Positions 25,447-39,231 of a stretch of 64,000 bases of DNA are shown here, in pieces. A program made the translations under genes and the position numbers. The notes below the pieces were generated by a model that did not search any database, was not told the DNA's origin, and worked only from the letters and a program-made list of their open reading frames with translations. Position 1 is the stretch's first letter. Every line of letters starts with the position of its first letter. The DNA comes from Synechococcales cyanobacterium C42_A2020_086 (GTDB taxonomy: Bacteria; Cyanobacteriota; Cyanobacteriia; Elainellales; Elainellaceae): assembly GCA_015272325.1 (NCBI GenBank), contig JACYLU010000036.1, forward strand, positions 186,001 to 250,000, in the 5' to 3' direction.

Positions 25447-27633
25447 TCAGCGCCAGAGTTTGATAGTGGTATCGCGGCTACCGCTGACCAGGGTTTCTGC
25501 CCAGCAACTCAGCGACACTATGGGAGCGGCATGCCCCAGCAAGGTTTGTCGCAACTCTCCAGTTTGGGCATCCCACAACTTAATCGTGCGATCGGAGCTG
25601 GCGCTGGCCAAGGTTTGAGCATCTACAAACACAAGGGATGTAACCTGCTCAGCATGACCATCCAGCGTTTGGAGTAACTGCCCGGTCGCAGGATTCCACA
25701 GTTTGATAGAACCATCCCAACTTGCACTGGCTAGGCGACCCTCGGGACTAAAACTGACGGCACTCACCCCTTGTGGATGTCCTCCGGGTTCCCCTAACGT
25801 GCGGAGTAGCTCACCCGTCTGCCCATCCCAGAGTTTGATGGTTTTGTCTTCGCTGCCGCTAGCGATGAGGGAGCCGTTGGGGCTGAGCGCTACCCCATGC
25901 ACTGGACCCGTATGCTCAGCAGCAGTGCGGCTGGTGCCCGTTCGCAGATCCCAACGCCTGACAGTTTTATCTTCACTGCCGCTGACAAGCGTTTGCCCAT
26001 CGGGACTCAGCACAACCGACGTGACCGGAGCAGAATGACCGGTCAGGGTTTGCAAAAGCTCGCCCGTGGTGACATGCCAAAGATGGATGGTGTGGTCACG
26101 GCTCCCGCTTGCTAGAAGTTGCCCATCGCTGCTGAGACTGAGGGATTGCACGGTATCTGTGTGGTGGTTCAGCGTCAGGCGGACCTGCTGTGTAGTCGCA
26201 TCCCAGACAGTGATTGGATAAACCAGCTGAGCTGCATCCCGATCGTCTCCACTGCTAATCAGGGTTTGGCCGTCCGGGCTTAAAACCGCTGCCCGAACCG
26301 GAGACCGAGCAGCAAAGCTAGCGGCTAAAGCCAGCGAATCGGTCGCTGCAGCGTCGATAGTCCTGGCAACGGTAGGATCGGGGAGCACAGGACGAACAGA
26401 TCTCGATGGCGTCGATGGGAGCTGAGAAACTGTGCGAAAAACTGCGTAGAAGCCCAAAGACAAAGCTAAAACAGTGCCGCCGAGCAGCCATAGCAACCGA
26501 CGGGAAGGACGCTGACGATGAATCGTAGGCGAGGGAGCGACAGAAGCATCCGCCGCAGGCAGCAAGGCTGGAGAAGCAGGCGACAGGTTCTGAAGGGTAG
26601 CATCTGGTTCGGATACGTCTCGGATCAGCGTTTCTGCAGCTGCATGAGAGTGCAATTGAGCCGCGGCTAGAGGAAGCGAGAGCAAATCTGCCGTGCTGAT
26701 CCCCTGTAGCGCCGTTCCTAGCTCTGCTACCGAAGCAAATCGCTGATCCGGTAACTTGGCTAAGCATCGCATCACTACAGCGTCTAGGGCAGACGGGATT
26801 GGCTCGCAGCCCGGATGGGATCGCAGTGGTTGGGGGGGTTTAGAGGCATGGGCGGTGAGCCAAGCCGTGTTGGTCACTGGATGATGGTGGAAATCAAAGC
26901 CGAAGGGATCCGTTCCGGACAGCATTTCATACAGAATTACTCCAAGGCTGTAAATATCGGAACGCTCGTCTACAGCTCGCCAGCCGTCAAATTGTTCGGG
27001 GGAAGCATAGTGGCAGGTTCCTAAAAAGATGCTGGTCGTGTGGGTAGATTCAGCGTGCAGTGAATAAATTTTAGCAATACCAAAATCAATGATTTTTGCC
27101 AATTGCCCAAGTGTTGTCGGCAGTAAAAAAATGTTATCGGGCTTGAGATCGCGATGAACGACTTTGATGCGTTCGCTAGCATTCGTTTCCCGATTCCAGA
27201 TCATCACGCCTTCATGGGCTAAGCGCAATCCAGCACAGACTTGAGTGATGATACTACATGTTTGCTCGATTGACAGACGAGGTTGTGTTGATAAAAGCTG
27301 TCCTAGTGTTTGCCCTTGCAGATACTCCATTACATAAAATGGATATCCTTCGCTGGTGACGCCGTAATCGCTCACTTGAACAATATGTACGCTTTTGAGT
27401 GCAGCACAGATGGTACATTCCCGTTCAAAGCGCTGTCTTAGATCCAAATCATTAGCAATCAGCGGATCTTTGAGTAATTTTAGAGCAACGGATTTTCCTA
27501 AACGGGTATCGGTAGCGAGGAAAACGTCACCCATGCCACCGCCGCCAAGGTATTGATCAAGGCGATAGCGATTGTCATCACCAGTGACACGACCGATCCA
27601 AGCTTGGGGTTGATTAGAAGAAAACTGACTCAC
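25447..27633 (-). CDS. Ser/Thr protein kinase with C-terminal WD40 propeller
   Basis: The 728-residue protein has a Hanks-type kinase domain at about residues 20-300: glycine loop LGGGGMGDVFLA, catalytic VVHRDLKPDNIFLL, metal-binding IDFGIAK and YASPEQF. All catalytic residues are intact. A single membrane segment (RLLWLLGGTVLALSLGFYAV) lies near residue 380, after a Pro/Ser-rich linker. Seven WD40 blades follow, most with SxDxTIKLW-type strands, making a complete propeller. The kinase is probably cytoplasmic and the propeller on the other side of the membrane. It starts at a GTG 21 bp after a WD40-only gene, so the two form an operon. Substrates are unknown; an FHA-domain redox protein at 33 kb is a possible reader. 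Confidence 0.92.
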   Translation of the reverse strand: MSQFSSNQPQAWIGRVTGDDNRYRLDQYLGGGGMGDVFLATDTRLGKSVALKLLKDPLIANDLDLRQRFERECTICAALKSVHIVQVSDYGVTSEGYPFYVMEYLQGQTLGQLLSTQPRLSIEQTCSIITQVCAGLRLAHEGVMIWNRETNASERIKVVHRDLKPDNIFLLPTTLGQLAKIIDFGIAKIYSLHAESTHTTSIFLGTCHYASPEQFDGWRAVDERSDIYSLGVILYEMLSGTDPFGFDFHHHPVTNTAWLTAHASKPPQPLRSHPGCEPIPSALDAVVMRCLAKLPDQRFASVAELGTALQGISTADLLSLPLAAAQLHSHAAAETLIRDVSEPDATLQNLSPASPALLPAADASVAPSPTIHRQRPSRRLLWLLGGTVLALSLGFYAVFRTVSQLPSTPSRSVRPVLPDPTVARTIDAAATDSLALAASFAARSPVRAAVLSPDGQTLISSGDDRDAAQLVYPITVWDATTQQVRLTLNHHTDTVQSLSLSSDGQLLASGSRDHTIHLWHVTTGELLQTLTGHSAPVTSVVLSPDGQTLVSGSEDKTVRRWDLRTGTSRTAAEHTGPVHGVALSPNGSLIASGSEDKTIKLWDGQTGELLRTLGEPGGHPQGVSAVSFSPEGRLASASWDGSIKLWNPATGQLLQTLDGHAEQVTSLVFVDAQTLASASSDRTIKLWDAQTGELRQTLLGHAAPIVSLSCWAETLVSGSRDTTIKLWR

Positions 27634-27654: not shown

Positions 27655-28848
27655 CTAGCGTCCTGAGCTTGACTTGTGCCAGAGCAGGACAGTACCGTCT
27701 CGACCACCGCTAATAAGGGTACGACCATCGGGTGTAAAGGCAACCGACAACACCCAATCGAGATGTCCCAAAAGAGTGGCCAACAAGGTCTGCCGTTCCA
27801 GATCCCAAACTTTGATCGTGCTATCTACACCCCCACTGACCAACTGTTTGCCATCCGGGCTAAAGGCAATCGAGACAATGCGGTTAGCATGACCGGTAAA
27901 GGTGTGGAGTTCCTGTCCGGTCTGACAATCCCAGAGTTTGATGGTGCCGTCCCAGCTCGCGGTGGCGATGCGATCCCCGCTAGGGTCAAAGACTAAGGCT
28001 CTCACCGTGTCGGTATGCCCGAGCAGCGTTTGCAGCTCTTGACCAGTTTTCCAGTTCCACAGCTTAATCGTTTTATCCTTGCTGCCACTGGCGAGCCGTT
28101 TACCATCAGGGCTGAATACGACTGGGAACAGGCGATCGCGATGCCCCGAGAGCGTCCGCGTTAATCTGCCGCTGCTGAGATCCCAGAGGCGAATTGTGCT
28201 GTCGCCGCCGCCGCTCGCCAAGGTCTTACCGTCGGGAGTGAAAGCCATGGACCAGATAACGCCGACATGCCCTTTGAGGGTGCGGATCAGCGTACCGCTT
28301 TGCAGATCCCAGAGCTTGATCAGCTTATCAGCGCTGCCGGTTGCAAGGGTTTTCCCATCTGGGCTAATCGCTAGGGAATGAATGACATCTGAGTGCCCCT
28401 TGAGGCGATACACAATCTGGTGGCTGCCCAGATCTCGCACCTCCACCACATTGCCGCTCACCGATGCCAGAGTCTTGCCGTCAGGGGTTACCACCACCCA
28501 CCAAGCTGCCCCCGAACGCCCCAAAAACGACTGCACCTGCAGCGATTGCCAGTCTTGACCCACTGCGCAGTCGGGCAAAACAATCTGCGGCTCGACAATC
28601 TGTGCGGCTTTCGGCTGAGGGTTGCCCTGCCGAGTCACGACTTTTTCTGTACAGGGCTGTGCCTCGGCTAAATTGGCAGCATCGAGTGATCCTGAAATTT
28701 GGCTGGGGGGCCGGGAAAGACTGCCGAGTGCAAAGCCAGCGCCGAGGAGCAGCAGCGTCATGATCGCCTGGCGAAAAAAGAACATTTGCTGACGCACCCT
28801 CCTGATGGTTTCGGTTTCCTGAGAACGAGAAGCAGACTTGTTCATCAT
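27655..28848 (-). CDS. Membrane-anchored WD40 repeat protein
   Basis: The 397-residue protein has a short cytoplasmic N-terminus, one membrane segment (AIMTLLLLGAGFALGSLS) near residues 29-48, a linker and seven WD40 repeats, each with a SPDGKTLASG-type strand and a TIKLWD-type closing strand. The seven blades form a full propeller that would sit outside the cytoplasm. GAGGTC lies just before two consecutive ATG codons. It is immediately upstream of the kinase-WD40 gene on the same strand and probably co-transcribed. The propellers of the two genes resemble each other and may be products of duplication. Confidence 0.88.
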   Translation of the reverse strand: MMNKSASRSQETETIRRVRQQMFFFRQAIMTLLLLGAGFALGSLSRPPSQISGSLDAANLAEAQPCTEKVVTRQGNPQPKAAQIVEPQIVLPDCAVGQDWQSLQVQSFLGRSGAAWWVVVTPDGKTLASVSGNVVEVRDLGSHQIVYRLKGHSDVIHSLAISPDGKTLATGSADKLIKLWDLQSGTLIRTLKGHVGVIWSMAFTPDGKTLASGGGDSTIRLWDLSSGRLTRTLSGHRDRLFPVVFSPDGKRLASGSKDKTIKLWNWKTGQELQTLLGHTDTVRALVFDPSGDRIATASWDGTIKLWDCQTGQELHTFTGHANRIVSIAFSPDGKQLVSGGVDSTIKVWDLERQTLLATLLGHLDWVLSVAFTPDGRTLISGGRDGTVLLWHKSSSGR

Positions 28849-28959: not shown

Positions 28960-30339
28960 TTATGCCGTCGCGAAATCGGCTGCTGTGAACGTGTCTTGAA
29001 ACTTGACGCTGGTCAGGTTGTTGTAGTTGGCTTGCACGCTGAAGGGTCCACCGTTGCCCAGATCCGAGGAGAACACGGCGCGGCTGATGCCGAGCGTGCT
29101 GTTGTAGTAGACAAACACCCCTTTGCCAGCGGTGATCTTGTTGTTGGCGGCAATGGCAGCGGCTGCCTGTCCGGCGTTGGCAAAGGTATCGCCGGTGAGG
29201 ACCAGCAGATTGCTGTCGCCCGCGAGGTCTGCCACTCGACCCTGGGAGAATTTCAGGTCTCCATAGAACTGCTTGCTAAACACCACCTGATCGATGCCTT
29301 GCTCGTAGTCGGTGATCACGTCGGGCTGGTTGAGGGCTTGGGCGGGATTACCGTTAGCAAAGGGATCGGTGAAGAACTGGAACTTATCTTTGCCGCCGCC
29401 GCCGGTAAGGCTATCGCCCAAGGTGACGGGCAGATTGGTAGCAGGATTGGTGAATGTAATTGTGCCGGTGCCGCCGGTGAGAATATCGTCACCATTGCCG
29501 CCGCTGGCCTCAAGGCGAGTTTTTGTGTTGCGAGCATCGACGCTGTCGTTGCCTTCACCGCCATCAAACTGGATCAGCTCTACGCCGGTCCCCGTCAGGT
29601 CATTGATGATGAACGTATCGTTGCCGCCATCGCCGCTGACATCAAAGATTTCGGCGGTATCCACGGTTAAGTCAAACCGACCGACACCGAGTTGACCGTC
29701 TAATCCGACGCGCTCAAAGAAGGCTTTGCCGACGGCATTCTTACCCAGCACAAAGTTATCCCCTCGGGCAACTGCGCCATCCACTTCAATGGTGTCGCGG
29801 CCTTCGCCCCCGCTCATGATGTCGTTGCCGTCGCCGTCATCCCAGTCGAGGGTGTCGTCCCCTCGTCCACCCAGCATTGTGTCGTCGCCCGTGTTGCCAG
29901 AGACAAAATCATTGCCGTCGCCGCCGTCGAGCTGGTCATTACCAGAGCCGCCATTGACTTGGTCATCCCCCAGATCACCAAAGACTTTGTCGTTACCGGA
30001 GCCACCATCGAGGGTATCCGAGCCGTCACCGCCAAAGATCTCATCATTACCAGAGCCGCCGTTGACGGTGTCATCACCCACACCGCCTCTCAGCCGATCT
30101 CTGCCGGCACCCCCATCGATTGTGTCATCGCCGGCACCACCGTCAATTTTGTCATCCCCGGCACCGCCCAGCAGAGTATCGTCACCGTCTCCACCGCGAA
30201 CGATATCTTTGCCACCGCCACCATCTACTCTATCGTTACCTGCACCGGCAATACAGATATCATCTCCAGCCAACGCAAAGAAGGTATCTTTCTTGGCAGT
30301 GCCAATCCAACGATTGTTACCATTTGTACCCCATGCCAT
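28960..30339 (-). CDS. RTX (haemolysin-type) calcium-binding repeat protein
   Basis: The 459-residue protein contains a long array of glycine/aspartate nonapeptides of the GGxGxDxLx type (for example GGAGDDTIDGGAGRDRL) from about residue 23 to 180, which fold into a calcium-filled parallel beta-roll. A second stretch with shorter repeats follows (GGNDTFIINDLTGTGVELIQ). The C-terminus ends with a non-repetitive segment (SVKFQDTFTAADF), a common pattern in type I secreted cyanobacterial RTX proteins. No N-terminal signal is seen, in keeping with C-terminal secretion. AAGGAG is eight bases before the ATG. No type I exporter is adjacent. Confidence 0.88.
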   Translation of the reverse strand: MAWGTNGNNRWIGTAKKDTFFALAGDDICIAGAGNDRVDGGGGKDIVRGGDGDDTLLGGAGDDKIDGGAGDDTIDGGAGRDRLRGGVGDDTVNGGSGNDEIFGGDGSDTLDGGSGNDKVFGDLGDDQVNGGSGNDQLDGGDGNDFVSGNTGDDTMLGGRGDDTLDWDDGDGNDIMSGGEGRDTIEVDGAVARGDNFVLGKNAVGKAFFERVGLDGQLGVGRFDLTVDTAEIFDVSGDGGNDTFIINDLTGTGVELIQFDGGEGNDSVDARNTKTRLEASGGNGDDILTGGTGTITFTNPATNLPVTLGDSLTGGGGKDKFQFFTDPFANGNPAQALNQPDVITDYEQGIDQVVFSKQFYGDLKFSQGRVADLAGDSNLLVLTGDTFANAGQAAAAIAANNKITAGKGVFVYYNSTLGISRAVFSSDLGNGGPFSVQANYNNLTSVKFQDTFTAADFATA

Positions 30340-30954
30340 GTATTTTCTCCTTGAATTCAGTGAAATTGAGATTGCGTGAATAAGTCAAAGCGCTGCAACT
30401 CCTTATGCAAATTGGAGTGCAAATTAGAAGTTACAAGTGATCGTTGAGAGAGGCTAAATTGAATAAAATCTTGCAATCGACTATCCGGTCGTTTTGCATA
30501 TAAACGTCATCATCCGGATACATCCCTGATAAAGCAGTAAGCAGTGAGAAGAGAATCCACTCGCGCTACACCCTTAGCTACACCATCAGACTAAGCGGAT
30601 TCGCCCGCACTGTCGGTACGAAAAAGTCTGAAAATGTCAGGCATCTGAGTTCTAGATGTTCAACTCTTCTCTGGGTTAAAGCTGAAACCGTTTCGCAGCC
30701 TTGGATCTCGCTTACGCTCCTCGATGGTGCATTGGAGGCAGAGGCTCCTCCGCGTTTCCTGTTATTTCAAGGCACTTCAAAGTCAACGCTGAGCGACCTT
30801 CGCATCCATCTCCTAACACGATGTTGGGGAAAGATCTGATCTTTTCCGACTTTTTCTAGCTGGCAAATGGGCTGATTCCGCTTAGGGTGTTGCTGATGGA
30901 GATTCAATAGACTCTATTCCCCCAGGCTTGTCCTTTCGGCACAGGACGCGACTC
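30340..30954. other. Divergent intergenic region RTX / membrane 4Fe-4S gene
   Basis: About 615 bp separate two divergent genes. Visible are a short direct repeat (GCAAATT, about 30407-30425) and a GC-rich palindromic stretch GGAGGCAGAGGCTCCTCC near 30734-30751. No gene is supported. Confidence 0.4.
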
Positions 30955-32787
30955 ATGTTGGCATCTATTTCAGAAAAGCACATACGTTTAATTCGCTGGG
31001 GACTCACCCTCGGCTGGTTTGTTTTGATCGCGTCGATGTTTTACGATCCGATTTCTGCCCAGTGGACCGCCCCGAATCAGGTGTTCGCGGCCACTACTCC
31101 CGATGGTCAGTTTCTGTTTCAAGGCAGCCGCCGCCCCCTCACTCCCTACCCCATGGGCACCCGCATCTTTTGGGGGATGGTGCTGCCGCTATCTATTTTG
31201 ATTCTGCTGATTTTGGGACACGAAGCTTGGCGACGAATCTGTCCGCTGTCTTTCTTGTCGCAGATTCCTCGCGCCTTGGGCTGGCAGCGCCAACGGACGG
31301 TTGAGGAAACCTCCTGGTTGGGACGGAACGCACTCTATCTGCAAATGGGGTTGCTGTTTATCGGTCTCAATTTGCGCCTGCTGCTGGTGAATTCCGACCG
31401 CCTGCTGCTGGGACTGTTTCTACTGCTGACCATCCTCGCGGCAATCACGGTGGGCTGGCTCTACGATGGCAAGACTTGGTGCCATTACTTTTGCCCGATG
31501 GCTCCTGTGCAGATGATTTACAGCGAACCCAGCGGACTACTCGGCAGCGATGCTCACACTGCTCCGGCCAAAACCATCACCCAGTCTACGTGCCGCACGA
31601 TTGATCCGCGGGGGCAAGAGAAAAGCGCCTGTGTGGCCTGCAAAACGCCCTGCATCGATATCGACGCTGAACGCGCCTACTGGGAGGATCTGCGTCAGCC
31701 CGAACGCAAGCTGCTCTACTACGGCTATGTCGGTCTGGTGATGGGCTTCTATCTTTACTTCTGGCTGTATTCCGGCAATTGGAGTTTGCTCTCGGCAGGG
31801 GTGTGGAACGAGACAAATCAGTGGGCCACGCTGTGGAGTCCTGGCTTCTTTATTGCCGGTCATGCAGTGCCAATTCCCAAATGGATCGCGGTTCCCCTGA
31901 CGCTAACCAGCTTTGCGGGTGCAACCTATAGCTTGGGACTGTGGCTGGAAAGCTCCTACAAACGCCGCAATCAGCGGTTAGGCTACCCACTGAGCCGCGA
32001 CCAAGTTCAGAGCCGCTGCTTTGCCGTTGCCACTTTCACGGCCTTCAATCTGCTGTTTTTTATGGGAGTGCGACCCACCCTCGGCTACTTGCCGCTGCTG
32101 ATGCAGCACGCCTTGAGCTGGATAGCGATTGTAGTCAGCAGTTTGTGGCTCGCCAAAACCTGGAGACGTAGCGCTCGCCAGTATCACCGAGAACGCGACG
32201 CCAATTTACTGAGACGACAGTTAAGCAAGCTCAATCTGGACCTGCACCAACTGCTAGAGGGGCGCTCGCTCACCGACTTGAATCCTGACGAACTCTACGC
32301 CCTAGCTAAGGTGCTGCCCGGACTCGCTCAGGATTATAGCCTACAGCTCTATCGGGGCGTACTGCGGGAAGCCTTCGAACAAGGGGTTACTCCAGCCAGC
32401 AGTCTGATCACGTTTCAAACCCTGCGACAACATCTTAAGCTCTCGGAAGACGATCACTGGGCGGTGATCCATCGGCTGCAGCTCGAAGAACCGCTGCTGT
32501 TTGCGCCCTTTCAGCGCCGCGATCTCGATCCCACCGTTCATCGTCCGCGCGGTCGGGTTTCTGACCCACTAGAGGCGACGCTGTACCAGCCCCATCGTTC
32601 CAGAACTGCTGACTCTCAGTGTCACTACCCCTATCAGCGCAGCAGGACAGAAGGCGATGAGGATACAACGGTGATTCGTTCGCTAAACGCCAATGAAACT
32701 TATTCTGAGATTGCGCCTGATATGAAGCTAGAGAACAATAAGGACGAAAATGATGAAGCTCAAGATATTCAATCATCAAACGGGTAA
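30955..32787 (+). CDS. Membrane 4Fe-4S protein (NapH/NosR-like) with cytoplasmic tail
   Basis: The ~610-residue protein has about ten membrane segments (first near residues 13-30) and two cysteine clusters. WCHYFCPMAPVQ (about residue 182) and SACVACKTPCIDIDAER (about 224-240) resemble the polyferredoxin-type motifs of NapH and NosR, which pass electrons across or along the membrane; RRICPLSF adds another Cys-Pro. The last ~200 residues are soluble and contain a regulatory-looking helical region (LHQLLEGRSLTDLNPDELYA). Start: ATG at 30955 with AGGA ten bases upstream. The 3' end overlaps the FHA-reductase gene by 38 bases, so the two products are probably partners. Confidence 0.85.
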   Translation: MLASISEKHIRLIRWGLTLGWFVLIASMFYDPISAQWTAPNQVFAATTPDGQFLFQGSRRPLTPYPMGTRIFWGMVLPLSILILLILGHEAWRRICPLSFLSQIPRALGWQRQRTVEETSWLGRNALYLQMGLLFIGLNLRLLLVNSDRLLLGLFLLLTILAAITVGWLYDGKTWCHYFCPMAPVQMIYSEPSGLLGSDAHTAPAKTITQSTCRTIDPRGQEKSACVACKTPCIDIDAERAYWEDLRQPERKLLYYGYVGLVMGFYLYFWLYSGNWSLLSAGVWNETNQWATLWSPGFFIAGHAVPIPKWIAVPLTLTSFAGATYSLGLWLESSYKRRNQRLGYPLSRDQVQSRCFAVATFTAFNLLFFMGVRPTLGYLPLLMQHALSWIAIVVSSLWLAKTWRRSARQYHRERDANLLRRQLSKLNLDLHQLLEGRSLTDLNPDELYALAKVLPGLAQDYSLQLYRGVLREAFEQGVTPASSLITFQTLRQHLKLSEDDHWAVIHRLQLEEPLLFAPFQRRDLDPTVHRPRGRVSDPLEATLYQPHRSRTADSQCHYPYQRSRTEGDEDTTVIRSLNANETYSEIAPDMKLENNKDENDEAQDIQSSNG

Positions 32788-34228
32788 TGTTCAAGAAACC
32801 ACTCTGACTTCCAGCAGCCAGTCCTCAGAGGCAGAATGGTTGATTGGGCGGGGTACCAGTTGCCATCTCGTCCTCGATGGTTCGGATGTCAGCCGCCTGC
32901 ATGGCAAAATCACGCTGCAGAATGGCGAGTATTTCTACATGGATATAGGCAGCGCCAACGGTTCGTGTCTCAACAATGAAGCTCTGCCGGCCAAGCACGC
33001 TTTCAAACTCAAAGGAGATGACCTGATCCGAATTGGGGATTTCGTGCTGCTGATTGAAGCGCTAGATGAGTCCGCCAACAATTCTTTGCGGAGTTCTGGA
33101 GACGTTTCGATTTGGAAGAATCTGCATGGCGATTTCCCGATTTGGTCTCAGGGCAAAATTACCGTGCGCTGCGTCCGCATCACTCCAGAAACACCGGACG
33201 TCAAGACCTTCACCTTTGTCGCTGAGCCAGCGGTGCTATTTCGCTATCAGCCGGGTCAGTTCGTCACGCTAGAACTGGAAATTAACGGAGAACTCATCCT
33301 GCGCTCCTATTCGATTTCGTCTACCCCCACTCGACCGCATACCCTAGAGATAACCGTCAAGCGTGTGCCGGCACCCTCGCCCGATCTGCCCGCTGGACTG
33401 GTGTCGAATTGGCTGCACAATCACCTCAGCGTGGGCAGCACCCTCCAGATCAACGGTCCGCTGGGGAAGTTCACCTGTGCTCCCAATCCGCCCAAGAAAC
33501 TGTTGCTGATCTCGGCAGGCAGCGGCATTACGCCAATGATGTCTATGATGCGCTGGTTGGCTGATACCGTGTCTCCAGCAGATGTCTGCTTCTTGCACTG
33601 CGCTCGCACGCCCAGCGACATCATTTTTCGCCAAGAGCTAGAGCTGATGGCAGCCCGATTGCCCCAGGTTCATCTGTCTATCTCAACTACCCGGCCCACG
33701 CTAGGACAGCCTTGGTTCGGCTTCACTGGTCGCCTCACCGAAGCAATGCTGTGCACGATTGCGCCAGATTTTTTAGAACGCACCGTTTATGTCTGCGGAC
33801 CCCAAGAATTTATGCAGTCCGCCAAAGCACTGCTGAAACGTTTGAACTTTCCCATGCAGCAGTACTATGAAGAAAGCTTTGGAGCACCCAAGAAGGCAAA
33901 ACAGTCAGCAGAACCGCCTAAGTCCGCTGCGGCAGCACCACCTAGCACCGCTCCCTCTTCCAGCCAATCGGTGGTGGTGTTCACTCAGTCCGGCAAAGAA
34001 GTGCCGAGCGGCAGTGACGAATCTATTCTGGATTTGGCGGAGCAAGCAGGTGTCAAGATCCGCAGCAATTGTCGGCAAGGCGTTTGTGGGGCGTGCAAAA
34101 AGCGCAAGCTGGAAGGAGAAATTCAATATGCGCAGGAACCCGAAGCCCTAGATGCAGACGAACAAGCCGCTGGCTATATTCTCACCTGCGTCGCCGCTTC
34201 TGTAGGACGAGTGCTTATTGAAGCTTAA
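32750..34228 (+). CDS. FHA domain - flavin reductase - 2Fe-2S ferredoxin fusion
   Basis: The 492-residue protein has three modules. Residues 1-~105 are an FHA phosphothreonine-binding domain (LIGRGTSCHLVLDGSDVSRL followed by HGKI, and the SANGS loop). Residues ~135-375 are a ferredoxin-NADP reductase-type module: FAD site LRSYSISSTPT, pyridine-nucleotide site LLISAGSGITPMM and VYVCGPQEFM. A Ser/Pro/Ala linker leads to a plant-type 2Fe-2S domain (~400-492) with cysteines in NCRQGVCGACKKRK and ILTCVA. It should move electrons from NAD(P)H through FAD to a 2Fe-2S centre. It overlaps the membrane 4Fe-4S gene. Phospho-dependent docking through FHA is an inference. The acceptor is unknown. Confidence 0.9.
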   Translation: MMKLKIFNHQTGNVQETTLTSSSQSSEAEWLIGRGTSCHLVLDGSDVSRLHGKITLQNGEYFYMDIGSANGSCLNNEALPAKHAFKLKGDDLIRIGDFVLLIEALDESANNSLRSSGDVSIWKNLHGDFPIWSQGKITVRCVRITPETPDVKTFTFVAEPAVLFRYQPGQFVTLELEINGELILRSYSISSTPTRPHTLEITVKRVPAPSPDLPAGLVSNWLHNHLSVGSTLQINGPLGKFTCAPNPPKKLLLISAGSGITPMMSMMRWLADTVSPADVCFLHCARTPSDIIFRQELELMAARLPQVHLSISTTRPTLGQPWFGFTGRLTEAMLCTIAPDFLERTVYVCGPQEFMQSAKALLKRLNFPMQQYYEESFGAPKKAKQSAEPPKSAAAAPPSTAPSSSQSVVVFTQSGKEVPSGSDESILDLAEQAGVKIRSNCRQGVCGACKKRKLEGEIQYAQEPEALDADEQAAGYILTCVAASVGRVLIEA

Positions 34229-35381: not shown

Positions 35382-35921
35382 ATGGACAATACTTTTCCAG
35401 TTGAAGCCCCCTCTTTATCACGGCGACAACTACTTAATTTTCTCACTGGAGCAACGGTAGCTGTCACAGTAGGTTCTGCCCTCTATCCGGTGGGTCAGTT
35501 CTTTGTTCCACCCAAAGAAGACACAGGGGTAGAGGGTGGCATTATTGCGAAAGATATTCTGGGAAATCCAATTCCCGCAAGCCAAATTCTGGCAGAACCG
35601 CCCGGAACTCGGGCACTGGTCGCAGGGTTAGCAGGTGAACCAACCTACTTGGTTGTGAGAGACGACCAAACACTTGACCCGATAGGGCTTGTAGATAATT
35701 GCACTCACTTGGGTTGCACCTTTCCCTGGAACCCTGTCGATCAGCAGTTTCAATGTCCTTGTCATGGTTCTCTTTACGCGCCAGATGGCACAGTAATTCG
35801 TGGGCCGGCACCCCTACCCCTCAAGATTGTTCACGTCGCCGTGATGGACAACGGCGGTATTTTGATTTCACCTTGGACAGAGACCGACCCCCGTACTGGC
35901 GAGAAGCCTTGGTGGGTTTAG
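35382..35921 (+). CDS. Rieske 2Fe-2S protein (PetC-type paralogue)
   Basis: The 179-residue protein is a close relative of PetC, the Rieske subunit of cytochrome b6f. It has a twin-arginine/membrane anchor (LSRRQLLNFLTGATVAVTVG), then the cluster-binding boxes CTHLGCTFPWN and CPCHGSLYAPDG with both Cys and both His, and RGPAPLPLKIVHV. The C-terminus ETDPRTGEKPWWV matches PetC. AGGAGG precedes the ATG. A PetC copy beside DUF2892 and rhodanese genes and without petA is unusual: it probably is an alternative Rieske used under particular redox or sulfide conditions rather than the main b6f subunit. Confidence 0.9.
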   Translation: MDNTFPVEAPSLSRRQLLNFLTGATVAVTVGSALYPVGQFFVPPKEDTGVEGGIIAKDILGNPIPASQILAEPPGTRALVAGLAGEPTYLVVRDDQTLDPIGLVDNCTHLGCTFPWNPVDQQFQCPCHGSLYAPDGTVIRGPAPLPLKIVHVAVMDNGGILISPWTETDPRTGEKPWWV

Positions 35922-35949
35922 TTATAAACAGTCATAAACGAGGTGCTTA

Positions 35950-36339
35950 ATGTCTAAACTGACTCATTCCAAACCGGCTCATTCCCAAGCTCAGAATGGA
36001 TCAACTGTAATTGACCTGTCTCCCACAGAGTTCTCTCAGCTGCCGAACCCACCATTACTCATTGATGTTCGCAGTTCCCTGGAATACTTCACAGGTCATG
36101 CCCCTAATGCCCGAAACTTAAGTTTGCCCCGAATTTTGATGGGCTTAAGCCTAACGCAGTGGTTTTTGCCCCGATGGTTTCGGGAGTTGTCAAAAGAGCA
36201 GCCCATTGCGGTGATCTGCCTAACGGCACACCGTAGCTCCATTGCAGCCAAGAAGCTTGCCGATGCAGGTTTTACCACAGTCTATAACATCACAGGCGGC
36301 ATGATGGAGTGGCGGCGTTCGGGTCTGAAGACAACATAA
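35950..36339 (+). CDS. Rhodanese-domain sulfurtransferase
   Basis: The 129-residue single-domain rhodanese has PLLIDVRSSLEYFTGHAPNA and the active-site loop VICLTAHRSSIAAKKLADAG, in which Cys of CLTAHRS is the persulfide-carrying residue. It ends with the usual GGMMEWRRSG. Rhodaneses move sulfane sulfur between donors and thiols or cyanide. It starts 28 bp after the Rieske stop and is surely co-transcribed with it. Together with DUF2892 it corresponds to the two halves of YgaP. Confidence 0.9.
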   Translation: MSKLTHSKPAHSQAQNGSTVIDLSPTEFSQLPNPPLLIDVRSSLEYFTGHAPNARNLSLPRILMGLSLTQWFLPRWFRELSKEQPIAVICLTAHRSSIAAKKLADAGFTTVYNITGGMMEWRRSGLKTT

Positions 36340-36350
36340 ACAGTGCAAGA

Positions 36351-36983
36351 TCAAGTGAATTGACCCGTTCCCAATCCCGTTCCTAATAGGGAATTCTTGA
36401 ATCCTAGAAGTTGCACGACGGCACTTATTCCGTTGTGTAACGTCCCTTCCTGAATGAAGCGTGTTGTTTCACGCGCGATCGCCCATTCCAGTCCGCCCAA
36501 TTCAGTCTGTAGCTCAGCCAAGTTCATCATTAGCTCGGCAGAGGGTGGGCCGCCAGTCTTGTATTGCAACTGTTGAGGCGTGTAGGCTTCCAAGACAAAG
36601 GCTCCACCTATCACCAATCCCTCTACAGCAGCGCGGTGCAGTCGAACCCGCACTTCGGGCGGCACATGGGCAAAGATGGAGACAATCCCCTGCCAGTGGT
36701 TGGGTTGAATGACAAACTCCCTCAAATCCGCACAACAGGTTTCGATGCTGACTCCTCGCTCCGCTGCCAATCGGCGCGCCTTCTGCAAGCCAACACTAGA
36801 GAAGTCAACCGCTGTGACTGAATAGCCTTTTTGTGCCAGAAAAACCGCATTCCGTCCTTCCCCCTCTGCTAAACAAAGGACCCGACCCATGGGAATGCGA
36901 TTGACCACGCTGATCAAAAAGTCATTAGCAGTCGTGCCATAGACATAGTCTTCTGCTTTGTAGCGTGCGTCCCACGGGTTCAT
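36351..36983 (-). CDS. Class I SAM-dependent methyltransferase (TehB/TPMT-like)
   Basis: The 210-residue protein has the Rossmann SAM site (GRVLCLAEGEGRNAVFLAQK) and the acidic loop TAVDFSSVGLQKARRLAAER, with no C-terminal extra domain. The start MNPWDARYKAEDYVYGTTAN is typical of small thiol or tellurite/selenite methyltransferases of the TehB or thiopurine type. It is convergent with the rhodanese gene (11 bp between stops) and has an operator-like palindrome 69 bp upstream. Methylation of sulfide or thiols as detoxification would fit the cluster but is inference. Confidence 0.85.
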   Translation of the reverse strand: MNPWDARYKAEDYVYGTTANDFLISVVNRIPMGRVLCLAEGEGRNAVFLAQKGYSVTAVDFSSVGLQKARRLAAERGVSIETCCADLREFVIQPNHWQGIVSIFAHVPPEVRVRLHRAAVEGLVIGGAFVLEAYTPQQLQYKTGGPPSAELMMNLAELQTELGGLEWAIARETTRFIQEGTLHNGISAVVQLLGFKNSLLGTGLGTGQFT

Positions 36984-37391
36984 GACCGCCTTCGTCTCAA
37001 CAGAATCAGGTTAACCTCTTCAGTGTACAAGTAGAATTACGCATTGTTTTAATAACTATCTGGTTATATAATCATTTTAGCTTACCTAGCTTATCCTGTG
37101 CTGAAGCACGTTGCAGAAGGACATTGTATAGCTCCCTTTTGGCTCGTAAACAGCTGTAGTTCTGCTAGAGAATTACACCAAACGTGTCGAGAACGCTAGC
37201 TCGAATTCTTGAAGTGGATACGAGATCATCTGCAAACACGACTTGCTGCAGTCAACGGTGCAATCACTGCCCTTGAGGAACCGATCCAGCGAGACGCCCA
37301 GCCTCACACTCAACCTCCAGATACTGCTGCATAAACCTGAATCAGGTCACTGTGTTTCAATCCGTTTTCTGTACAAAGAGGAGACACTCTC
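36984..37391. other. Divergent region with palindrome, methyltransferase / 4Fe-4S gene
   Basis: About 410 bp contain the operator candidate at 37052-37067 within an AT-rich stretch, then GC-richer sequence without a supported gene or tRNA. Promoters for both divergent genes must be here. Confidence 0.5.
37052..37067. promoter_or_regulatory. Palindromic operator candidate (copy B)
   Basis: ATAACTATCTGGTTAT has perfect 5-bp arms (ATAAC/GTTAT) around six bases. It matches copy A at 34846-34861 at 12 of 16 positions, including all of the outer halves except one R position, and has the same AT-rich right flank. Confidence 0.6.
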
Positions 37392-37970
37392 ATGACGACC
37401 CAAGCCAAACCCAAAAAATCGAAAGCGAAGCGGTCTCAGTGGATCATGCTGGGATTCTTTCCGTTAATTGCGATTGGGGGCTTATTCTACCCCTTGCTGG
37501 GCTATCTGATGCCCTTGATGATGGCATTTCTAATTACAAACTCTTACTTTCACGCTCGCTACTGGTGCGGCAATCTCTGTCCCAGAGGAGCTTTTTTAGA
37601 TATTGTCATGCCCCACTTCACGTTCAATCGTCCTTGGCCGCGCCTGTTTAATCGGCGGTGGTTCCGCTGGGGCGTGTTTGGGTTGTTTATGAGTGTCTTT
37701 ATTTCTCGCATGATCGCAACGGGTGGAAATGTGCTGGCGATCGGCGGTGTGTTTGTCAATATGTGTGTTGTCACCAGTTTGATTGCGATTCCACTAGGAA
37801 TTGCCACTCGCCCTCGCGCTTGGTGTTCGTTTTGCCCAATGGGTACGCTGCAAGAATCCCTTGGTAAGCTGGGGCAACGCCATGCCCGCACCAAACGGAA
37901 GGCATCTCAGCCAGCCCAGCTACCCGCAGCAACGGACACAACACCCACAAAGCGTAGCTCAAGTCTGTAG
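37392..37970 (+). CDS. Membrane 4Fe-4S binding protein (NapH-like)
   Basis: The 192-residue protein has about three to four membrane helices and two cysteine motifs, YWCGNLCPRGAFLD (about residue 57) and WCSFCPMGTLQESLG (about residue 144), as in the NapH/CcoG half-ferredoxin family. A Lys/Ser-rich tail follows. It probably relays electrons at the membrane. GAGGAG is eight bases upstream of the ATG. It belongs to the Rieske/rhodanese cluster by position and by the shared operator-like site. Its partner could be the Rieske protein, which is not shown. Confidence 0.85.
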   Translation: MTTQAKPKKSKAKRSQWIMLGFFPLIAIGGLFYPLLGYLMPLMMAFLITNSYFHARYWCGNLCPRGAFLDIVMPHFTFNRPWPRLFNRRWFRWGVFGLFMSVFISRMIATGGNVLAIGGVFVNMCVVTSLIAIPLGIATRPRAWCSFCPMGTLQESLGKLGQRHARTKRKASQPAQLPAATDTTPTKRSSSL

Positions 37971-38457
37971 CTTCGCCACCGCGTTGTTGATTCTCGGGGC
38001 AATACCTGCTGCAAGTTGACGGCTTCCATAATGGTGGTGGTTCAAGGCGCGACGCTGATTGCCATGCCCAATCCCAGCACCACAATAGCCGGAAAAAGGT
38101 CGTCCAATAGCTACCGCCAATGCCGGGAAGGGCAAAGTAAACCCGACAGCCGCAATCGTGGGATCATCAGCGGACGTTTGGCACCGTAGCGGTTGACCAG
38201 TCCCCCCGACCAGCGCCACAGCAGAAACATCAGCAGAATGAACGGCAAAAAAGCAGCTCCAGCGGCATCAGCAGAGTAGCCCTGCACCTGAATCAATGAA
38301 TCAAATTGAAGAGCAGAAAAAACAGCACGCCGCTGAGGGCCGTGTAGAGAAACAACGTCAGCAGATTGGCACCCGTGAAGTTGCGCGAGTGAAACAGCGA
38401 CAGCGGCATCATCGGATGGCGGCTGCGGGCTTGGACCCAAAGAAATCCGGCTAAGCG
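37965..38457 (-). pseudogene. DHA2-type MFS drug transporter remnant
   Basis: The minus strand carries pieces of an EmrB/QacA-like MFS transporter in several frames: PLSLFHSRNFTGANLLTLFL followed by YTALSGVLFFLLFNLI, then VQGYSADAAGAAFLPFILLM with WSGGLVNRYGAK, then TTFF and PAIVVLGLGMAISVAP before an internal stop. At least three frameshifts, a stop and the missing N-terminal half show it is decayed. It directly follows the SDR gene on the same strand. Confidence 0.82.
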
Positions 38458-38463
38458 GAGGGG

Positions 38464-39231
38464 TTAGGTACGGCGATGCACGAGGGTAGCGCTCGATTGG
38501 TCGGTGGCCAGCACCACAATATCGCTGATATTGACATGGGGCGGGCGCGTGGCGCAAAACAGCACGATCTCGGCAATGTCGTTGGGAGTTAGGGGAGTCA
38601 TGCCGCGATAGACCTGCTTGGCCCGCTCAGCGTCGCCGTGGAAGCGCACTTGGCTGAATTCGGTTTCCACCATGCCGGGATCAACAGCGCTGACTCGAAT
38701 CGGCGTTCCCAGCAGATCGAGCTTTAGCCCTTCGGTGAGGGCACGCACGGCCGCTTTAGTGGCGCAGTAGACGCTGCCGCCCGGATAGGTCTGGTGCCCT
38801 GCAATTGAGCCAATGTTGATTACATGCCCCTGACCGCGCTCCACCATGCCTGGTACCACCGCCCGCGTCACGTAGAGCAACCCCTTGATGTTAGTGTCGA
38901 TCATTTCTTCCCAGTCTGACCGCTTGGCTTCGTGGAGCTTGTCGAGACCGCGACTCAGACCGGCATTGTTAATCAGCACATCAATATGAGACCAAGGCTT
39001 GGGCAATGAGTTTAAGGCCGTCTCGACTTGCGACGGATCACGAACATCCAGCGGTAGGACGTGAATGACATCCGGATTGGCAACCTGACTGACAAGCTGC
39101 TCTAAGCGATCCCGCCGTCGAGCTGCCAAAATCAGCCGTGCTCCGGCTTGGGCAAAGGTTTGGGCACAGGCCGCCCCGATGCCGCTGCTGGCCCCGGTAA
39201 TCAGTACGGTTTGGTTGTGAATCATTGACAT
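38464..39231 (-). CDS. Short-chain dehydrogenase (YdfG-like)
   Basis: The 255-residue protein is a classical SDR oxidoreductase: TGASSGIGAACAQTFAQAGA for NAD(P) binding (Arg residues after the second strand suggest NADP), INNAG, the catalytic Ser in VINIGSIAGHQTYPGG and the YCATK motif with catalytic Tyr and Lys. SAVDPGMVETEFSQVRF with the VYRGMTPL region matches the YdfG group acting on L-allo-threonine and 3-hydroxy acids. It is followed by the decayed transporter and is divergent from cysH. Confidence 0.88.
   Translation of the reverse strand: MSMIHNQTVLITGASSGIGAACAQTFAQAGARLILAARRRDRLEQLVSQVANPDVIHVLPLDVRDPSQVETALNSLPKPWSHIDVLINNAGLSRGLDKLHEAKRSDWEEMIDTNIKGLLYVTRAVVPGMVERGQGHVINIGSIAGHQTYPGGSVYCATKAAVRALTEGLKLDLLGTPIRVSAVDPGMVETEFSQVRFHGDAERAKQVYRGMTPLTPNDIAEIVLFCATRPPHVNISDIVVLATDQSSATLVHRRT

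Follow-up and report, generated by a model that had tools for sequence, protein, structure and literature searches.

A conserved cyanobacterial gene pair encoding a membrane iron-sulfur protein and an FHA-domain flavin reductase, frequently linked to Hanks-type kinases

The phagocyte NADPH oxidase assembles through the phosphorylation-driven docking of a cytosolic partner. In the Hanks kinase-FHA modules PknB-GarA and PpkA-Fha1 a Ser/Thr kinase is linked to a partner whose FHA domain reads phosphothreonine, and GarA and Fha1 are kinase targets (PMC6213207). Here we describe a locus of the Synechococcales cyanobacterium C42_A2020_086, located within 64,000 nucleotides of contig JACYLU010000036.1 (positions 186,001 to 250,000; this whole stretch is referred to as the window). 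It encodes an eight-helix transmembrane protein, which we call MEM, a reductase with FHA, FAD, NAD(P)H and 2Fe-2S modules, which we call RED, and a Hanks-type kinase with a WD40 propeller, KIN (Table 1). From sequence we describe the anatomy of the two paired proteins, their conserved linkage, the enrichment of a threonine motif together with its check on held-out loci, the residues of the FHA domain, a predicted topology and a fusion of ferredoxin to MEM. The parts all come from known families. The literature that we searched on FHA/ferredoxin reductases, kinase/FHA pairs and NapH/NosR proteins in cyanobacteria holds no description of such a system, in line with what the first-pass annotation of this DNA had stated, which suggests that gating of a bacterial membrane redox chain by a Ser/Thr kinase and an FHA domain is undescribed in that literature.

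MEM resembles proteins of the NapH/NosR/CcoG type (Fer4_5, PF12801) in being polytopic, in its CxxxCP-type cysteine motifs, in its predicted cytosolic iron-sulfur (Fe-S) sites and in a remote profile similarity. Unlike them, it retains one cysteine in the first CxxxCP motif, scores weakly against Fer4_5, lacks an FMN-binding domain and belongs to a family with C-terminal regulatory tails (Thr motifs, FHA, cNMP or EF-hand). RED shares its domain order with FAD-NAD-2Fe2S reductases of the GbcB/Hcr/PaaE type but has an N-terminal FHA domain, and its partner is a membrane Fe-S protein rather than an oxygenase or hybrid-cluster protein. In contrast to the PknB-GarA and PpkA-Fha1 modules, the FHA domain is here carried by a redox enzyme, and its candidate ligand is the tail of a membrane redox protein. 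NOX2/NOX5 and bacterial SpNOX likewise combine an NAD(P)H-dependent flavin enzyme with a membrane electron carrier that it feeds; exported superoxide dismutase (SOD) or peroxidase neighbors, and by analogy phosphorylation- or Ca2+-dependent control, extend the likeness. However, MEM-RED has no ferric-reductase core, it would use Fe-S clusters and not heme, and its membrane part is not homologous. The proposed assembly of MEM and RED would thus work like that of the phagocyte oxidase without membership in that family.

The domain composition of RED is confirmed by Pfam matches to FHA (PF00498, E-value 1.4e-13, residues 30-96), FAD_binding_6 (5e-15), NAD_binding_1 (3e-17) and Fer2 (6e-13), accompanied by the motifs RSYS for FAD, GSGITP for NAD and C-x4-C-x2-C-xn-C with the four Fe-S cysteines. 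Its best NCBIfam match is GbcB (NF058606), at 371 bits and thus below the equivalog cut-off of 500. The phosphothreonine-reading elements are found in the FHA domain of the window RED, namely GR33-34, S48-R-x-H51 and a SANG loop. The first-pass annotation had named the lack of phosphate-binding residues as a finding that would speak against it; all 39 REDs adjoining a MEM have the same Arg, Ser and His, and the Asn of the SxNG loop, present in the window RED, varies among relatives. REDs encoded away from any MEM include two with a degenerate FHA domain (L083, 8331-10208; L084, 6386-8209) and two in which the 2Fe-2S domain is missing (L082 and L086).

MEM has 610 amino acids counted from its ATG; an in-frame TTG at 30928 is a possible alternative start. 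When the window MEM is aligned with 67 homologues, C96, C176, C180, C213, C226, C229 and C233 are invariant in all 68 sequences. They form a three-Cys site, in which the first NapH-type CxxxCP is shrunk to xxxCP with a single Cys left, and a four-Cys ferredoxin-like site. The charge distribution predicts that these cysteines and the C-terminal tail all face the cytosol. The AlphaFold (AF2) model (predicted local distance difference test, pLDDT, 79.5; predicted template-modeling score, pTM, 0.78) contains eight transmembrane helices, with residues 520-610 disordered. The open reading frames of MEM and RED share exactly 38 bp (32750-32787). The first-pass annotation had described this overlap, the modules of RED and a kinase-WD40 protein encoded 3.3 kb from MEM, all of which hold; of its two NapH/NosR-like Cys clusters, two sites are indeed present, but as three plus four cysteines with the first CxxxCP reduced.

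As judged from gene content and order, MEM and RED form a module that is conserved in cyanobacteria. Of 386 cyanobacterial genomes sampled across the phylum and scored for both proteins, 50 encode MEM and 15 an FHA-type RED, and these 15 all encode MEM as well; all MEM matches fall within the class of the window genome. Adjacency of the two genes recurs in Leptolyngbyaceae, Nostocales, Moorena, Symploca and Pseudanabaena. Homologous loci preserve the order MEM>RED but not the exact overlap, and the gaps vary. A single scan of named genomes returned 457 MEM relatives, and among the 80 closest RED lies directly downstream of most short-tailed MEMs and also of long MEMs with FHA and cNMP domains.

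The pair is associated with Hanks-type kinases. KIN matches Pkinase (PF00069) at 1.1e-37 and, with its HRD and DFG motifs present, is a Hanks-type kinase. We compared 56 loci encoding both MEM and RED with 68 MEM-only loci, using equal flanking DNA and counting kinases within 8 kb (<=8 kb). A Hanks kinase is linked at 28 of the former and at 0 of the latter (p=1.5e-12). At sister loci the kinase domain of the KIN orthologue is about 62-77% identical, compared with 43% for the best paralogue in the window's own genome; in some loci the gene diverges from MEM, and elsewhere it lies downstream in the same orientation, in the arrangements MEM>RED>kinase and MEM>RED>WD40>kinase, which often include the window's WD40 neighbor gene. 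Within the window's own order, a KIN orthologue occurs in 13/14 genomes with a close RED and in 3/22 others (p=3e-6). Nostocales MEM-RED loci carry a CHASE2-type kinase. Additionally, we held out 12 new loci from genomes of the window's own order, with motif patterns fixed before these were fetched. A kinase is present at 10 of them, where kinase density would predict about 4.3%, because a second WD40-fused lineage, 25-28% identical to KIN, immediately precedes MEM in the same orientation in seven genomes; judged by gene order, it forms an operon-like kinase-MEM-RED array. On the strength of both comparisons we reject chance adjacency of the kinase. At the genomic level, the survey supports the first-pass interpretation of an electron path from NAD(P)H to the membrane whose assembly would depend on threonine phosphorylation.

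The tails of MEM, although divergent, share a repeated threonine motif with the consensus S-D-A-[ED]-[PST]-T-[VI]-x-R-P, in one to about six copies. The 27 RED-linked short tails together hold 27 copies of its core, [DE]xT[VI]x[RK], compared with 0.3 in shuffled tails; the core is weakly raised in MEM-only tails (7 vs 1.8) and shows no excess over chance in long-type tails (2 vs 1.4). The looser pattern T[VI]x[RK] is found in 11 of the 12 held-out tails (0.65 expected), and the stricter [DE]xT[VI]x[RK] in 0 of the 12. An artefact of composition is rejected by the shuffles and by the held-out set, in the latter case for T[VI]x[RK] alone. In long-type pairs, MEM has an FHA domain of its own and no tail motif, and an acidic-Thr motif is found in the linker of RED instead, with 13 copies vs 2.3 expected, a pattern noticed afterwards among related sequences.

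We propose, with a probability of about 0.62, that MEM, RED and the linked Hanks kinase constitute a module through which electrons enter cyanobacterial membranes, with a reductase that plugs in under the control of the kinase. The kinase would phosphorylate threonines of the MEM tail, and the FHA domain of RED would bind the phosphorylated tail, tethering the reductase. Electrons from NAD(P)H would pass through FAD to the 2Fe-2S domain of RED, which, once tethered, would reduce the clusters of MEM; MEM may then deliver these electrons to an acceptor within the membrane or on its far side, either a quinone or O2/superoxide at the outer face. Phosphorylation, binding of the FHA domain to the tail and the direction of electron flow are the steps that we infer. 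The fusion of a C-terminal Fer2 domain to MEM in one relative (L111, 6478-8346) shows directly that the MEM core has a ferredoxin-type domain as a natural partner.

Several observations weigh against this proposal. MEM is common without RED (35 of its 50 genomes), and of the 15 genomes with RED, 5 have it unlinked to MEM, Fer2 being absent from RED in two of the 5. Independent occurrence of the two genes had been named in the first-pass annotation as grounds for doubt, and it applies in part, since RED never occurs without MEM among the 386 genomes. About half of the loci with RED show no kinase in the DNA scanned, and in one genome (G414) the window-type kinase is unlinked. A tree-controlled test of RED against kinase gave 5:0 pairs with a median p of about 0.06, for the first set, before the held-out lineage had come to light. 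No transmembrane cofactor is visible in MEM besides the cytosolic Fe-S sites. Finally, an R or K at +3 is no classic FHA preference, and therefore part of the motif signal may reflect recognition by the kinase.

The acceptor could take two forms. The kinship of MEM with NapH points to a quinone, and it is possible, though less likely than not, that the module is a kinase-gated NAD(P)H:plastoquinone reductase, in which quinone is reduced near the cytosolic Fe-S sites as an alternative entry to the photosynthetic or respiratory chain. The relationship to NapH is remote. The Fer4_5 score of the window MEM, 18.2 bits, lies under the curated Pfam cut-off of 22 bits, which some relatives exceed (L074, 30.2; L150, 29.2). 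MEM aligns by hhalign with a small NapH-like protein of the window across the CP motifs (probability 78, E-value 1.8e-5), and it has seven invariant cysteines where the NapH superfamily has two CxxxCP motifs and two four-Cys sites. The eight helices with cytosolic Fe-S sites, and the confinement of MEM in the phylum sample to one class, also agree with this idea. On the other hand, no quinone site was identified in MEM, and it has no solved fold relative: a PDB sequence search gave no match, and a fold search with the model found no PDB relative of the membrane core, from which novelty of the fold does not follow, and gave weak matches for the helical region 456-521 alone. The linkage to SOD and peroxidase genes would also be left unexplained.

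That linkage suggests an extracellular superoxide/H2O2 output. In Nostocales, 14 loci encode an exported Cu/Zn-SOD lipoprotein downstream of RED, in the order MEM>RED>SOD>kinase, the kinase often being of the CHASE2 type. A vanadium haloperoxidase adjoins the pair, on differing sides, in three genera (Moorena, G305 and Coleofasciculus), and an animal-type heme peroxidase lies 210 bp upstream of MEM in Symploca. Overall, such genes occur at 19/56 loci with RED and 1/68 without, the lone exception being cut by a contig end. Phytoplankton, including cyanobacteria, make extracellular superoxide, which inhibitor data attribute to flavoenzymes (PMC12684733). MEM-RED could thus be an analogue of NADPH oxidases, passing electrons to O2 at the outer face and supplying superoxide/H2O2 to exported SOD and peroxidases, with EF-hand and phospho-site regulation reminiscent of NOX5 and NOX2. 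This is compatible with the proposed module, though rather unlikely. The window pair has no Pfam match to the ferric-reductase transmembrane domain of NOX (PF01794), and the invariant histidines of MEM (89, 201 and 501) all lie outside the hydrophobic transmembrane cores, which hold no heme-type His pair. With every Fe-S site predicted on the cytosolic side, no route for electrons through the membrane can be seen. Neither an SOD nor a peroxidase is among the genes scanned next to the window pair, and the SOD linkage may be Nostocales synteny. Less likely again is the joint claim that the module is a heme-free functional counterpart of regulated NADPH oxidases, in which the MEM core passes electrons from the docked reductase to outside O2 and feeds the linked exported SOD, heme peroxidase or haloperoxidase, and the reductase is docked through phosphothreonine or, in relatives, controlled by Ca2+, cNMP or ferredoxin.

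Alternatively, the kinase itself might be what the FHA domain of RED docks on, or the Thr motif might serve the kinase as a recognition site only, with RED and MEM as separate substrates. The R/K at +3 would agree with this, as would similar motifs in the linker that follows the kinase domain in several window-type kinases (DPTVARTID, SPTIHRQRP, DLSTVARP). However, motif copies are concentrated in MEM tails, and the swap of FHA domain and motif between MEM and RED in long-type pairs fits contact between these two proteins better; we consider docking on the kinase improbable. Slightly more so is an ordinary constitutive redox pair, near which the kinase would lie by inherited synteny and in which the FHA domain would be a passive scaffold. 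RED can indeed be unlinked, and related genomes are not independent, for which reason the several kinase lineages make the better argument for independence: three of them (window WD40 type, CHASE2 type and second WD40 type) occur at MEM-RED loci in differing positions. The empty MEM-only loci with equal flanks, the held-out excess over expectation and the conservation of the motif where the remaining tail is not conserved also argue against a constitutive pair. Least probable is a transmembrane supply of thiol reductant of the DsbD/CcdA kind, in which MEM would reduce a lumenal disulfide: nearly all relatives keep a lumenal-loop Cys pair (C..VQGxC; second Cys in 66/68) and an open reading frame after MEM in L186 resembles, by eye, a CcdA-type protein, but the window MEM has lost both cysteines (Q52 and R59; residues 52-59, 31108-31131) with the rest of the module intact.

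Table 1. Features of the MEM-RED locus in the window and oxidant-related genes at homologous loci (locus given with the position)
Feature	Position	Strand	Description
MEM	30955..32787	+	NapH-superfamily-like Fe-S membrane protein, eight transmembrane helices, disordered tail predicted cytosolic
C96 codon of MEM (RRICPL)	31240..31242	+	invariant; three-Cys site with C176 (31480) and C180 (31492)
C213/C226/C229/C233 of MEM	31591..31653	+	four-Cys ferredoxin-like site, invariant in all 68 sequences
Thr motif 1 of MEM tail, DPTVHR (Thr527)	32527..32544	+	candidate FHA-ligand phosphosite
Thr motif 2 of MEM tail, DTTVIR (Thr572)	32662..32679	+	candidate FHA-ligand phosphosite
RED	32750..34228	+	FHA - FAD - NAD(P)H - 2Fe-2S reductase, 492 aa
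FHA domain of RED	32837..33037	+	Pfam match; R34, S48, H51 invariant in 39/39
2Fe-2S (Fer2) domain of RED	33986..34195	+	Pfam match
KIN, Hanks-type Ser/Thr kinase with WD40 propeller	25447..27633	-	Pfam; orthologue at sister MEM-RED loci
WD40 protein adjoining KIN	27655..28848	-	retained at sister loci (cluster c2)
RTX calcium-binding repeat protein between KIN and MEM	28960..30339	-	relative in 10/23 close loci
Nostocales SOD loci			L075, L076, L153, L154, L157, L159, L167, L168, L176, L184, L189, L190, L191, L193
Vanadium haloperoxidases beside MEM-RED	L178 12607-14373; L077 10165-12039; L188 1108-3258		
Animal-type heme peroxidase with RTX repeats	L161 4690-7791		

Other MEMs of the family end differently. 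Those of about 920-980 amino acids that carry only a cNMP domain usually lack an adjoining RED, Pseudanabaena being an exception. MEMs of the cNMP type adjoin a nitrate-type ABC transporter operon at five loci (L080, L093, L101, L107 and L120); for L107, NCBIfam matches confirm ntrB and ntrCD. This suggests a nitrogen-linked role for the branch. Slr0593 of Synechocystis has a role in motility. It is listed as a 'cAMP binding membrane protein' (PMC3516471) and is a possible MEM-cNMP relative by name only. Besides the fused ferredoxin, further MEM C-termini carry EF-hands or nothing; the EF-hand variants are L096, L089, L100, L104, L105, L122 and L197, with Pfam confirmation in L104 and L105. 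At four loci (L123, L125, L128 and L142) MEM-RED is preceded by a sigma70-region-4-like protein and followed by a DUF1822 protein.

Downstream of the pair, the window carries a cluster (35382-37970) of an additional cytochrome b6f Rieske gene (PetC), a rhodanese and the small NapH-like Fer4_5 membrane protein. These were considered as parts of the system and rejected, as sister MEM-RED loci show no such conserved neighbors. At 38111-39231, the end of a short-chain dehydrogenase reading frame is overlapped by an apparent MFS transporter fragment, possibly a pseudogene or frameshift.

If the proposed module is real, it would be, as far as the literature searched goes, the first described case in which an electron path of a bacterial membrane is turned on and off through physical assembly, by a Ser/Thr kinase together with an FHA domain. 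It would give a testable role to a large uncharacterized family of cyanobacterial membrane proteins, in which the regulatory domains (Thr motifs, FHA, cNMP, EF-hand and ferredoxin) look interchangeable. It would also offer candidate genes for a live question, namely which flavoenzymes stand behind cyanobacterial extracellular superoxide (PMC12684733).

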